Shown here one piece after another: positions 6,028 to 52,605 of a stretch of DNA of 64,000 bases. Below the pieces are notes generated by a model, which ran no database searches, was not told the DNA's origin, and was given only the letters and a program-made list of their open reading frames with translations. A program made the position numbers and the translations under genes. The DNA is from Streptomyces tuirus (GTDB lineage: Bacteria; Actinomycetota; Actinomycetes; Streptomycetales; Streptomycetaceae): positions 5,196,001-5,260,000 of the forward strand of contig NZ_AP023439.1 in NCBI RefSeq assembly GCF_014701095.1, given 5' to 3'. Numbering within the stretch: the first letter of the stretch is position 1; every line of letters begins with the position of its first letter.

Positions 6028-8061
6028 GTGAGCGACACCACCGATCTGATGGGCGCACGTGTCGAGGAGACCGCTGCCGCGCCCGCCACGGACGCCTCCG
6101 CGCCTGCCACCGGTGCCGGCTCCCGGCGGCGCCGCGGTACCGGCCTCGAGGGCATGGTGCTGGCCGAACTGCAGCAGGTCGCATCCGGCCTCGGCATCAG
6201 GGGCACCGCGCGTATGCGCAAGAGCCAGCTGATCGAGGTCATCAAGGAGGCACAGGCGTCCGGCGGCGCCGCTCCGGCCGCGAAGGCCGACGCGCCCGCC
6301 GAGACCAAGCCCAAGCGCCGCGCCACCTCGCGGACCCGTACGGGCGACAACGCCGAGAAGGCGGACAAGAAGGCGGACGCGAAGGAGGCCCCCCAGGCCC
6401 CCGCGGACCAGGCCGACAAGGCCGTGGCCCAGCAGCAGATCGAGATCCCCGGCCAGCCGGCCGGCGGCCCCGCCCGCGACGGGGGGGACGAGGCGCCCGA
6501 GCGCCGTCGCCGCCGGGCCACCGCCGAAGCCGGAGCCCCGGCCTCCGCTGCCGCGGAGACCATCGTCGCCGAGGCGAAGAACGACACCAAGTCCGAGACG
6601 CAGTCGCAGCAGCAGTCCCAGGGCAACGACGCCAAGTCCGACGGCGGTGACGGCGGCGAGGGCCGTCGTCGCGACCGCCGGGACCGCGGCCGGGACCGCG
6701 ACCGCGACCGTGACCGCCGCGGTGGCAAGGGCGACGACCAGCAGGGCGGCCAGCGCGGCCAGCAGCAGGGCCAGGGCGGCGGCGGCCGTCAGGACCGTGG
6801 TCAGCAGCAGCAGGATGACGACGACTTCGAGGGCGGGCGTCGTGGCCGTCGCGGGCGCTACCGCGACCGCCGGGGCCGTCGCGGCCGTGACGACGTCCAG
6901 GAGCCGCAGATCACCGAGGACGACGTCCTGATCCCCGTCGCGGGCATCCTGGACATCCTCGACAACTACGCGTTCATCCGCACGTCGGGCTACCTGCCCG
7001 GCCCGAACGACGTGTACGTCTCCCTCGCCCAGGTCCGCAAGAACGGCCTGCGCAAGGGCGACCACGTCACCGGTGCCGTGCGCCAGCCCAAGGACGGCGA
7101 GCGGCGCGAGAAGTTCAACGCGCTGGTGCGGCTCGACTCCGTCAACGGCATGGCGCCCGAATCGGGCCGCGGGCGGCCGGAGTTCAACAAGCTGACGCCG
7201 CTGTACCCGCAGGACCGCCTCCGTCTGGAGACGGACCCGGGCGTCCTGACCACCCGCATCATCGACCTCGTCGCGCCGATCGGTAAGGGCCAGCGCGGTC
7301 TGATCGTGGCCCCGCCGAAGACCGGCAAGACCATGATCATGCAGGCGATCGCCAACGCGATCACCCACAACAACCCCGAGTGCCACCTGATGGTCGTCCT
7401 CGTCGACGAGCGTCCGGAAGAGGTCACCGACATGCAGCGGTCGGTGAAGGGCGAGGTCATCTCCTCGACCTTCGACCGCCCGGCCGAGGACCACACCACC
7501 GTCGCCGAGCTGGCCATCGAGCGCGCCAAGCGCCTGGTGGAGCTGGGCCACGACGTGGTCGTCCTGCTCGACTCGATCACCCGTCTGGGCCGCGCGTACA
7601 ACCTCGCCGCCCCGGCCTCCGGCCGCATCCTGTCCGGTGGTGTCGACTCGACGGCGCTGTACCCGCCGAAGCGCTTCTTCGGTGCGGCCCGCAACATCGA
7701 GGACGGCGGCTCGCTGACGATCCTCGCCACCGCCCTGGTGGACACCGGGTCCCGCATGGACGAGGTGATCTTCGAGGAGTTCAAGGGCACCGGCAACGCC
7801 GAGCTGAAGCTCGACCGGAAGCTCGCCGACAAGCGCATCTTCCCGGCGGTGGACGTCGACGCGTCCGGCACCCGCAAGGAAGAGATCCTGCTGGCCCCGG
7901 ACGAGCTGTCCATCGTCTGGAAGCTGCGCCGGGTGCTGCACGCGCTCGACCAGCAGCAGGCGGTCGAGCTGCTTCTCGACAAGATGAAGCAGACGAAGTC
8001 GAACGCCGAGTTCCTGATGCAGATCCAGAAGACCACCCCGACGCCGGGCAACGGCGACTGA
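6028..8061 (+). CDS. rho: Transcription termination factor Rho
   Basis: 677-residue hexameric RNA helicase that ends transcription of untranslated RNA. The GTG start has GGAAGGA upstream. Order: Rho_N helical segment (about residues 45-75, [19 protein letters not shown]), a long Arg/Asp/Gly/Gln-rich low-complexity insert (about 80-290, with many GRRGR and DRDRDR runs), an OB-fold RNA-binding domain containing [15 protein letters not shown], then the RecA-like motor with Walker [10 protein letters not shown] and Walker [12 protein letters not shown]. coli Rho is 419 residues, so the basic insert accounts for nearly all the extra length; such inserts are common in high-GC actinobacteria and probably add RNA affinity. 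A GC-rich hairpin follows the stop. Confidence 0.97.
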
Positions 8062-50599: not shown

Positions 50600-50648
50600 G
50601 TCCCGGTACGTCCCTCATCGGTACGTCCCTTATCTGAACGGAGCTGTG

Positions 50649-51605
50649 ATGCAGGACGTCTCCACCCTGGTGGCCCAGGCCAGGGAAGGCCGGCCGCGGG
50701 CCGTGGCCCGGCTGATCTCCCTGGTGGAGGGGGCGTCCCCGCAGCTGCGGGAGGTCATGGCGGCGCTGGCGCCGCTGACGGGCGGGGCGTACGTGGTGGG
50801 ACTGACCGGGTCGCCCGGGGTCGGCAAGTCCACGTCGACCTCGGCGCTGGTCTCCGCGTACCGCAAGCAGGACAAGCGGGTCGGCGTGCTCGCCGTCGAC
50901 CCGTCGTCCCCGTTCTCGGGCGGTGCGCTGCTCGGGGACCGGGTGCGGATGTCGGAGCACGCGTCGGACCCGGGGGTGTACATCCGGTCGATGGCGACCC
51001 GCGGGCATCTGGGCGGGCTGGCGTGGTCGGCTCCGCAGGCGATCCGGGTGCTGGACGCCGCCGGCTGCGACGTGATCCTGGTCGAGACGGTGGGTGTGGG
51101 GCAGTCGGAGGTGGAGATCGCCTCGCAGGCGGACACGTCCGTGGTGCTGCTCGCGCCGGGAATGGGGGACGGGATCCAGGCGGCCAAGGCCGGGATCCTG
51201 GAGATCGGCGACGTGTACGTCGTGAACAAGGCGGACCGGGACGGGGCGGACGCGACGGCCCGCGAGCTGAACCACATGCTGGGGCTGGGGGAGTCCCGGG
51301 GGCCGGGCGACTGGCGTCCGCCGATCGTGAAGACGGTGGCCGCGCGCGGGGAGGGCGTCGACGAGGTCGTCGAGGCGCTGGAGAAGCACCGGGCGTGGAT
51401 GGAGGAGCGGGGTGTGCTCGCGGAGCGGCGGTTGTCGCGGGCGTCTCGGGAGGTCGAGACGATCGCGGTGACGGCGCTGCGGGAGCGGATCGGGGACCTG
51501 CACGGCGACCGGCGCCTCGGGGCGCTGGCGGAGCGGATCATCGCGGGCGAACTGGATCCCTACCGGGCGGCTGACGAGCTGGTGGCCGGGTTGACGGAGG
51601 GCTGA
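50649..51605 (+). CDS. meaB: G-protein chaperone MeaB of methylmalonyl-CoA mutase
   Basis: 318-residue GTPase (ArgK/MeaB family) that loads adenosylcobalamin into B12-dependent mutases and protects them from inactivation. P-loop GSPGVGKSTSTSAL, Asp motif LAVDPSSPFSGGALLGDRVR, DVILVETVGVGQSE and NKAD for guanine recognition. ATG 50649 is five bases from GGAG; GTG 50646 is too close. It follows the thiolase by 49 bases and may be co-transcribed. Confidence 0.95.
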   Translation: MQDVSTLVAQAREGRPRAVARLISLVEGASPQLREVMAALAPLTGGAYVVGLTGSPGVGKSTSTSALVSAYRKQDKRVGVLAVDPSSPFSGGALLGDRVRMSEHASDPGVYIRSMATRGHLGGLAWSAPQAIRVLDAAGCDVILVETVGVGQSEVEIASQADTSVVLLAPGMGDGIQAAKAGILEIGDVYVVNKADRDGADATARELNHMLGLGESRGPGDWRPPIVKTVAARGEGVDEVVEALEKHRAWMEERGVLAERRLSRASREVETIAVTALRERIGDLHGDRRLGALAERIIAGELDPYRAADELVAGLTEG

Positions 51606-51665
51606 GCCGGTGGTGGGGTGCGCGTTCCTTTCGCCCTCGCGTGGGGTGTGGGTCGGGGCCGCGCC

Positions 51666-51755
51666 GGGGGGTGTCCGTCCTCGGAACGGCGCGATGGGGT
51701 TGCGTACCGACTAACTCCCCGTTGACGCGCCAACCGCTGCGGGCGGACACCCCCC
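51666..51755. repeat. 90-bp nested inverted repeat
   Basis: Outer arms GGGGGGTGTCCG (51666-51677) and CGGACACCCCCC (51744-51755) are a perfect 12-bp match. Inside, GGCGCG (51688-51693) pairs with CGCGCC (51726-51731), and GGGG (51696-51699) pairs with CCCC (51717-51720), leaving a 17-base loop. The order of pairing is consistent with one long hairpin with internal loops. Confidence 0.8.
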
Positions 51756-51816
51756 GACACGACCCCTTGCGCCGTCCGGCGGCTAGCTGCGGGCATGCGT
51801 GCCGCTAAGGGCGGCA

Positions 51817-51864
51817 CGGGTGGGCGCAGCGGCACCCCGTTCCGCCGGGCTGCGAGCCCACCCG
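51817..51864. repeat. Intergenic hairpin repeat
   Basis: CGGGTGGGC (51817-51825) pairs with GCCCACCCG (51856-51864), and GCAGC (51826-51830) with GCTGC (51849-51853). Hairpins of this type are, as far as I recall, dispersed widely in Streptomyces genomes. The first copy of the 42-base direct repeat overlaps its right arm. Confidence 0.65.
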
Positions 51865-51969
51865 GCCTCAGCGCCGATGCCGAGCACCCCGAGACGCCGA
51901 GCTGAGGACCCACCCCGCCTCAGCACCGACGCCGAGCCTCCCGAGACGCAGGGTCGGTGCAACCGCTGA

Positions 51970-52605
51970 TCAGTCCTGGTCGTCGTCCTCGTCGTCGTCC
52001 TGGTCGTCCGCCGTGACCTTGCCCGAGGCGAGGTCGATCTTCCAGTCCTGCTCGGCGCCGCCGGACTTGCGGGTCTCGGCCTCCCAGGACGTGTTCTTGC
52101 CGTCGTCGTCGAGGTCCACGGACGTCACCACGCCCTTGCCGGCGGCGGCCTTCGCCGCCTCCTCGGCCGTCACCGACGAGCCCTTCAGAGCCGCCCGCAC
52201 CTGCGCCGTGTCGTCCTCGTCGTCGGTGTGCGAGCCGAGGACCTTGCCGCTGGCCGGGTCGACGCTCACGCTGTGCCAGGTGCTGTCGCCCGAGAGGACG
52301 TCGACCGTCCAGACGACCTTGTCGCCGTCGTCCTCGTCGTCCAGCTCGGCGGAGACCACCGTGCCCGACGTGTGCTTCAGCGCGGAGGCGATCGCCTCGG
52401 ACGCCGTCACGTCCGCCGACACCGTCTTCTCGGCGTCGTCGTCCCGGTCGCCGTCGTCGTCCCGGTCGTCGTCGTTCGACGCCTGCGTGGTGGCCGCCTG
52501 CCGCGCCGCGCCCTGGTCGCCTCCCGCGGTCGCGAGAGCCGTGGCCGTCCCGCCTCCGATCAGGGCGGCGGCGGTCACAGCGGCGATCACGATGTTGCGC
52601 TTCAT
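51970..52605 (-). CDS. Exported acidic protein with two PepSY domains
   Basis: 211-residue predicted secreted protein. Signal peptide at residues 1 to about 27 (KRNIVIAAVTAAALIGGGTATALA). Two PepSY-type units follow, KVVWTVDVLSGDSTWHSVSVDP with GKVLG, and SWEAETRKSGGAEQDWKIDLASGKV. Asp-rich stretches (DDDRDDDGDRDDD and the DDQDDDEDDDQD tail) suggest metal binding. It is divergent from an OmpR-type two-component system, and a shared inverted repeat lies between them, so it may be the signal modulator or a target of that system. Confidence 0.88.
   Translation of the reverse strand: MKRNIVIAAVTAAALIGGGTATALATAGGDQGAARQAATTQASNDDDRDDDGDRDDDAEKTVSADVTASEAIASALKHTSGTVVSAELDDEDDGDKVVWTVDVLSGDSTWHSVSVDPASGKVLGSHTDDEDDTAQVRAALKGSSVTAEEAAKAAAGKGVVTSVDLDDDGKNTSWEAETRKSGGAEQDWKIDLASGKVTADDQDDDEDDDQD

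Follow-up and report, generated by a model that had tools for sequence, protein, structure and literature searches.

A Streptomyces-Restricted Interspersed Hairpin Repeat between meaB and a PepSY-Domain Gene of Streptomyces tuirus

Introduction

The ERIC/IRU, RUP, Correia, and similar MITE-like repeats are imperfect palindromes of about 100–130 nt, non-coding and dispersed between genes; their descriptions include terminal repeats and duplications of the target. REPINs and REP-BIMEs with their RAYT were described by Bertels and Rainey in 2011, and the portion of that paper drawn on here (PMC3116915) presents them as short extragenic hairpin repeats that are present in many copies, have inverted arms separated by a spacer, and persist in a lineage. 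Families of dispersed stem-loops have also been surveyed in prokaryote genomes; in the sections of this survey that were consulted (PMC1590033), the only place found to name Streptomyces was the reference list. For Streptomyces itself, I-shaped intrinsic terminators, which lack a U tract, are reported in the consulted part of PMC8269248, where, for S. clavuligerus, 353 of 535 structured ends were without a U tract.

This paper will focus on a repeat in Streptomyces tuirus, located in a window of 64,000 nucleotides (contig NZ_AP023439.1, positions 5,196,001 to 5,260,000). The repeat, designated module A, represents one member of a non-coding family of hairpin repeats that are interspersed in the genome and restricted to Streptomyces. 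In size, palindromy, and dispersal it is like the ERIC/IRU, RUP, and Correia repeats, a likeness of description and not of sequence, but no target duplication was seen for module A. It also belongs with the surveyed stem-loops in being a dispersed stem-loop family. REPINs are the systems closest in form to module A, with which they share the properties named above; however, the RAYT gene on which REPINs depend is missing from most genomes rich in matches to module A. Compared to REPINs as presented in the source, module A has no association with a Y1/RAYT gene, is conserved as a whole unit of 113 nt and not as two REP seeds, and shows homogenisation in place, and covariation on one strand is documented for it here. 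Module A resembles the I-shaped terminators in being a GC-rich hairpin that is located at gene 3′ ends, in many cases where two genes converge. Unlike module A, these terminators, as characterised in the consulted text, do not form a family related in sequence and sharing an invariant internal loop.

Anatomy of the Intergenic Region

The gene for the MeaB GTPase (meaB, 50646–51605, plus strand) lies to the left of the element and a gene for a PepSY-domain protein (51970–52605, minus strand) to the right. The two genes are convergent, each with its 3′ end facing the element. From left to right, the gap consists of flank U (51608–51649), module A, flank D (51767–51782), module B (51783–51839), and a 52-nt tandem repeat; a strand was assigned to module A alone.

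Module A is a hairpin of 113 nt (51655–51767, minus strand), composed of an outer stem, a conserved internal loop, an inner stem of 6 bp, and a variable apex. Its core, which extends from GGGTC to CCCCT (51650–51767), is the unit found identical among recently homogenised copies, and is likewise assigned to the minus strand as the better-pairing one. The arms of the inverted repeat (51655–51680 and 51741–51766) comprise 26 nt each, are 85% complementary, and are spaced by 60 nt. The nested inverted repeat given in the preliminary description is thus present, with a size of about 112 bp in place of the 90 bp stated there.

The outer stem, S1, is formed on the minus strand by a 5′ arm of 23 nt (51744–51766) and a 3′ arm of 23 nt (51655–51677), in which the upper 12 nt are nearly invariant and the lower part covaries. 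The perfect match of the outer arms over 12 bp, already recognised in the preliminary description, corresponds to a block of 12-13 bp in S1, in which GGGGGGTGTCCG (51666–51677) pairs with CGGACACCCCCC (51744–51755). By virtue of S1, module A has terminal inverted repeats, a feature of MITEs. The sides of the internal loop carry, on the minus strand, the conserved motifs CCGAGGA (51678–51687) and CCCGCAG (51732–51743), both derived from the consensus and the invariant columns. They are followed by the arms of the inner stem, S2, which read GGCGCG (51688–51693) and CGCGCC (51726–51731) on the plus strand and are assigned to the minus strand, as is the variable apex (51694–51725). In the apex, a hypervariable segment of 8 nt (51698–51705) lies beside ACCGAC (51706–51711). 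The apex sequence differs among most copies of module A, and in the main clade it contains the variable stretch of 8 nt followed by ACCGAC.

Flanks U and D are loosely conserved and can pair with each other. They are similar, not conserved, and among the 88 of 141 copies that were usable (53 being without clean landmarks) each flank paired better with its own partner than with permuted ones, a result reached in 3 of 5000 permutations overall and in 107 of 5000 within species. With the apex considered as a guide, the left and right halves also fold slightly better together than when permuted. In the copies of the genomes G007, G397, and G396, flank U is part of a longer conserved sequence that continues upstream (gatgcctgcggcg...ggtgggggtgcgcgtagcgcc), and the repeat unit may therefore be larger in these lineages.

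Module B is a second dispersed repeat, which occurs both beside module A and alone. It contains the second hairpin that had been noted in this gap, identified as CGTGCCGC-TAAGG-GCGGCACG at 51798–51818. When module B (51783–51839) is compared to the loci in its own genome, one shared hairpin is followed by a right arm in two alternatives, gggtgggcgcagcggcac or ccgtcccaaagagagcggcac, as if the arm had been swapped. The two copies of the tandem repeat (51832–51883 and 51884–51935) are 81% identical; the direct repeat had been correctly seen before, with its length given as 42 instead of 52 nt.

Dispersal of the Repeat

A search of the own genome (7.56 Mb) with this stretch gave 34 matches, the best with an E value of 9e-133 apart from itself. 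For an element beyond chance, these matches are more decisive than any fold. The fold of 51640–51790 has a z score of −3.78 on the minus strand and of only −2.02 on the plus strand. While the latter value would suit a chance palindrome in GC-rich DNA, this explanation is refuted by the dispersed homologues and by the covariation described below, and its probability is negligible. Module A is represented in its own genome by 15 full copies and one fragment of 29 nt, and module B by 28 matches, the tandem units included; each module occurs with or without the other.

In relatives, 6 of 21 genomes were matched, with none among 8 genomes of other genera. A search at the family level gave matches in 12 of 150 genomes, two of which, from another genus, were matched only by fragments of 24–31 nt. 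Within the genus, modules A and B together matched 74 of 150 genomes, and a pattern scan of named genomes identified 108 stretches, all of them in Streptomyces, with S. coeruleorubidus, S. iakyrus, S. lomondensis, and S. tuirus among the species represented. When the order was searched with the covariance model of module A, 64 of 197 genomes were matched, all belonging to its own genus (one of 6 genera). Streptomyces genomes have been heavily mined, yet for this family, which has matches in about one third of the genomes sampled from the order, no description was found in open-licence PubMed Central, the scope of the search. With the Rfam covariance models, 51400–52100 gave no match at E values up to 1.

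No match of module A was found in the plasmid and phage collections searched. One viral contig of IMG/VR (L383) carries a copy of module A at 7763–7841. At a distance of about 50 bp from this copy is a set of genes on the minus strand, one of which appears, as judged from its sequence, to resemble the gene for a single-strand binding protein; no tRNA was present in the stretch of the contig that was examined. No protein-coding part was seen attached to the repeat. The preliminary description, which proposed either a structured RNA or a dispersed element of the non-autonomous kind, is supported by the dispersal, which was observed directly, by the lack of a visible coding part, and by the conserved pairing.

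The form of the repeat raises the question of whether it is a REPIN in the strict sense, for which a RAYT, an IS200/IS605-like transposase, would move a REP doublet in the form of single-stranded DNA. This picture agrees with its size, the nesting of the hairpin, the position outside genes, the large number of copies, the variability of the apex, and the strand specificity of the wobbles, and one Y1_Tnp gene is present in its own genome. However, any Y1_Tnp match was identified in only 6 of the 32 genomes with at least 9 matches to the model of module A versus 44 of 133 genomes without module A (a hand count; the matches per genome are those listed, among which one palindrome may be matched on both strands, and are not copy numbers). 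Genome G325, with 8 identical copies, has no Y1_Tnp match, and the 1.5-kb flanks of the Y1_Tnp locus in the own genome contain no match to module A or B better than an E value of 0.006. A RAYT was thus rejected as the driver, being not associated with the repeat and with 26 of the 32 match-rich genomes devoid of any Y1_Tnp match, and a true REPIN is very unlikely.

Conserved Pairing and Its Strand

The absence of conserved pairing in relatives had been named beforehand as evidence against the first reading of this locus, and covariation analysis revealed that such pairing is present. For 77 distinct cores, 94.4% of the cells in the named structure are paired, and 70 cells show two-sided changes versus 16.1 expected from shuffles. 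The covariation score was 0.115 compared to 0.050 for shuffled alignments (0/500), and slid versions of the structure reached at most 0.031; the fitting of this alignment to the model favours the named structure, and the shuffles do not allow for relatedness. A MAFFT alignment of 23 diverse cores, left from 27 after four truncated or recombined ones were dropped, gave a score of 0.109 versus 0.057 (0/500). Without guidance, RNAalifold recovered 31 pairs, 5 of them with two-sided changes. For each of the pairs 10–117, 12–113, and 41–89, UG, UA, CG, and GC were all seen. In both sets, the upper 12 bp of S1 (GGGGGGUGUCCG) hardly vary on the minus strand, whereas the lower part of S1 varies with compensation.

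Among the non-Watson-Crick cells of the minus strand, 102 are GU versus 7 AC, which would be GU on the plus strand. This implies that it is on the minus strand that pairing is important. The strand specificity of the wobbles agrees equally well with RNA and with single-stranded DNA, and the compensatory base changes, which in module A are above the controls, are also expected for structured single-stranded DNA. The invariant internal loop, in which CCCGCAG faces CCGAGGA, suggests a fold that may be recognised by a protein or an enzyme. Such a loop goes beyond the needs of a terminator and offers the best lead to a hidden partner, and module A is of interest as a possible protein-binding RNA or single-stranded DNA motif with defined invariant residues.

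These data bear on the possibility that module A is a functional structured RNA, such as a 3′-UTR element or a small RNA, which would be bound by a protein at the internal loop and kept under selection, the similarity of the copies reflecting a shared binding partner. Two-sided changes in the stems, unpaired residues that are invariant across lineages, the tolerance of GU but not of AC, and the location at gene 3′ ends all speak for such an RNA. However, there is no Rfam match, copies get lost and sit at different loci by lineage, and selection alone does not explain 8 cores at unrelated loci that are identical including the variable apex. A structured RNA in this sense is possible but doubtful.

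Homogenisation in Place and Loss of Copies

The first set of 141 copies was assigned to 36 orthologous loci. For 117 copies of the main type, core identity was 0.957 for the same species at different loci, 0.945 for different species at the same locus, and 0.940 when both were different. When species labels were permuted within loci, the species excess was reached in 0 of 2000 permutations. Homogenisation is only partial, since a weaker same-locus excess remains in the main clade (0.0083, 0/2000).

The clearest case was identified in G325, where 8 cores are identical over 114 nt, with GGGTC and CCCCT as the left and right limits of the identity. Five of these 8 cores are located at loci orthologous to copies of the S. 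tuirus genome, which carry other cores. This indicated that hairpins have been overwritten at fixed sites. Smaller identical sets are present in G397 and G396, with identity extending farther into one flank. How repeats remain similar when no transposase can be recognised may be studied in this family as a natural experiment.

In G325, left halves of module A are also tandemly duplicated just upstream of full copies at three loci (L319, L326, and L329). An insertion of one module A into another was considered for them and rejected, as no matching right half was identified; they look like local tandem duplications, as far as can be judged from their arrangement.

Three core-less copies were identified (in L020, L036, and L240). 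They had been considered as empty insertion sites, but retain the left arm and are joined within short direct repeats, so that deletion is likelier than an empty site.

The distribution over loci and the core-less copies are relevant for a MITE-like mobile element, which would have been moved by a putative DDE or other transposase. The occupied loci differ by lineage: 5 of 19 loci in G007 are common with the main clade, and none of the loci examined in G067 (0/4), G271 (0/5), and G238 (0/5). This implied that sites were gained over long times, as the lineages are largely at different loci. Against a MITE-like element, neither a target duplication nor a clean empty site was recognised, no transposase was recognised beside the copies (in neighbouring genes, inspected by eye), the first 141 copies are confined to the 36 loci, and plasmids and phages gave no match. 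Module A shows half of the features of MITEs, and a MITE-like origin is unlikely.

The replacement in place would result from gene conversion among the copies, for which cutting of an extruded hairpin may be the trigger. What counts against conversion is that the boundaries in G325 are sharper than expected of ordinary gene conversion. Alternatively, module A could be a self-rewriting element, for which a dedicated putative enzyme or RNA-binding protein of Streptomyces would read the internal loop and overwrite other hairpins with the copy of one, precisely between the two stem ends, a master with a new apex sweeping fixed gene-end sites; this proposal is quite unlikely. With conversion as the preferred process, hairpin slippage would delete copies, as in the three core-less remnants, and new sites would be gained rarely.

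Location at Gene Ends and Probable Role

With other lineages added, 227 copies were assigned to 73 loci. The 70 loci that could be classed, based on gene calls by a small codon-usage script and not on an annotation, comprise 26 convergent, 37 tandem, and 7 divergent arrangements; the null for these arrangements used gaps of at least 150 nt and is unfair to convergent pairs, and 7 loci in which the script did not find module A (L231, L233, L236, L290, L345, L346, and L353) were left out. At least one gene 3′ end is adjoined by 63 of the 70 classed loci, a feature expected of an intrinsic terminator.

Module A is a multi-copy hairpin with compensatory conservation on one strand, replacement in place, loss of copies, and a location mostly at gene ends. 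It is best explained, with a probability of about 0.5, as a REPIN-like hairpin repeat without a RAYT, whose copies are kept alike by conversion and are tolerated, or used in the manner of a terminator, as 3′-end hairpins. Where it is transcribed, it would act as a U-less (I-shaped) terminator or as a 3′-end stabilising hairpin, at this locus between meaB and the PepSY gene, which are convergent. Its copies represent a candidate set of strong 3′-end hairpins for work on gene expression.

The strand of module A was also considered in relation to gene orientation. The raw count, with right-hand neighbours on the minus strand in 105 cases versus 24 on the plus strand, was rejected, since orthologous copies are counted repeatedly. 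Counted per locus, module A between tandem genes gave 23 minus versus 14 plus arrangements, which is not significant (p 0.19). In 110 of the 150 listed places, module A points with the replication fork (own genome 12/15, G316 16/19, G007 11/20). This is a hint of a replication-direction bias in the main clade but not in G007, and the copies are not independent.

At the meaB locus, module A is absent from 26 of 29 readable relatives, the own genome counted. Another, unrelated long perfect hairpin is present in 9 of these 26 loci only, and thus the need for a hairpin at this locus is not general. In six of the loci without module A (L170, L174, L180, L184, L192, and L193), these other long perfect hairpins have stems of 18–31 bp, and they possibly represent further dispersed families.
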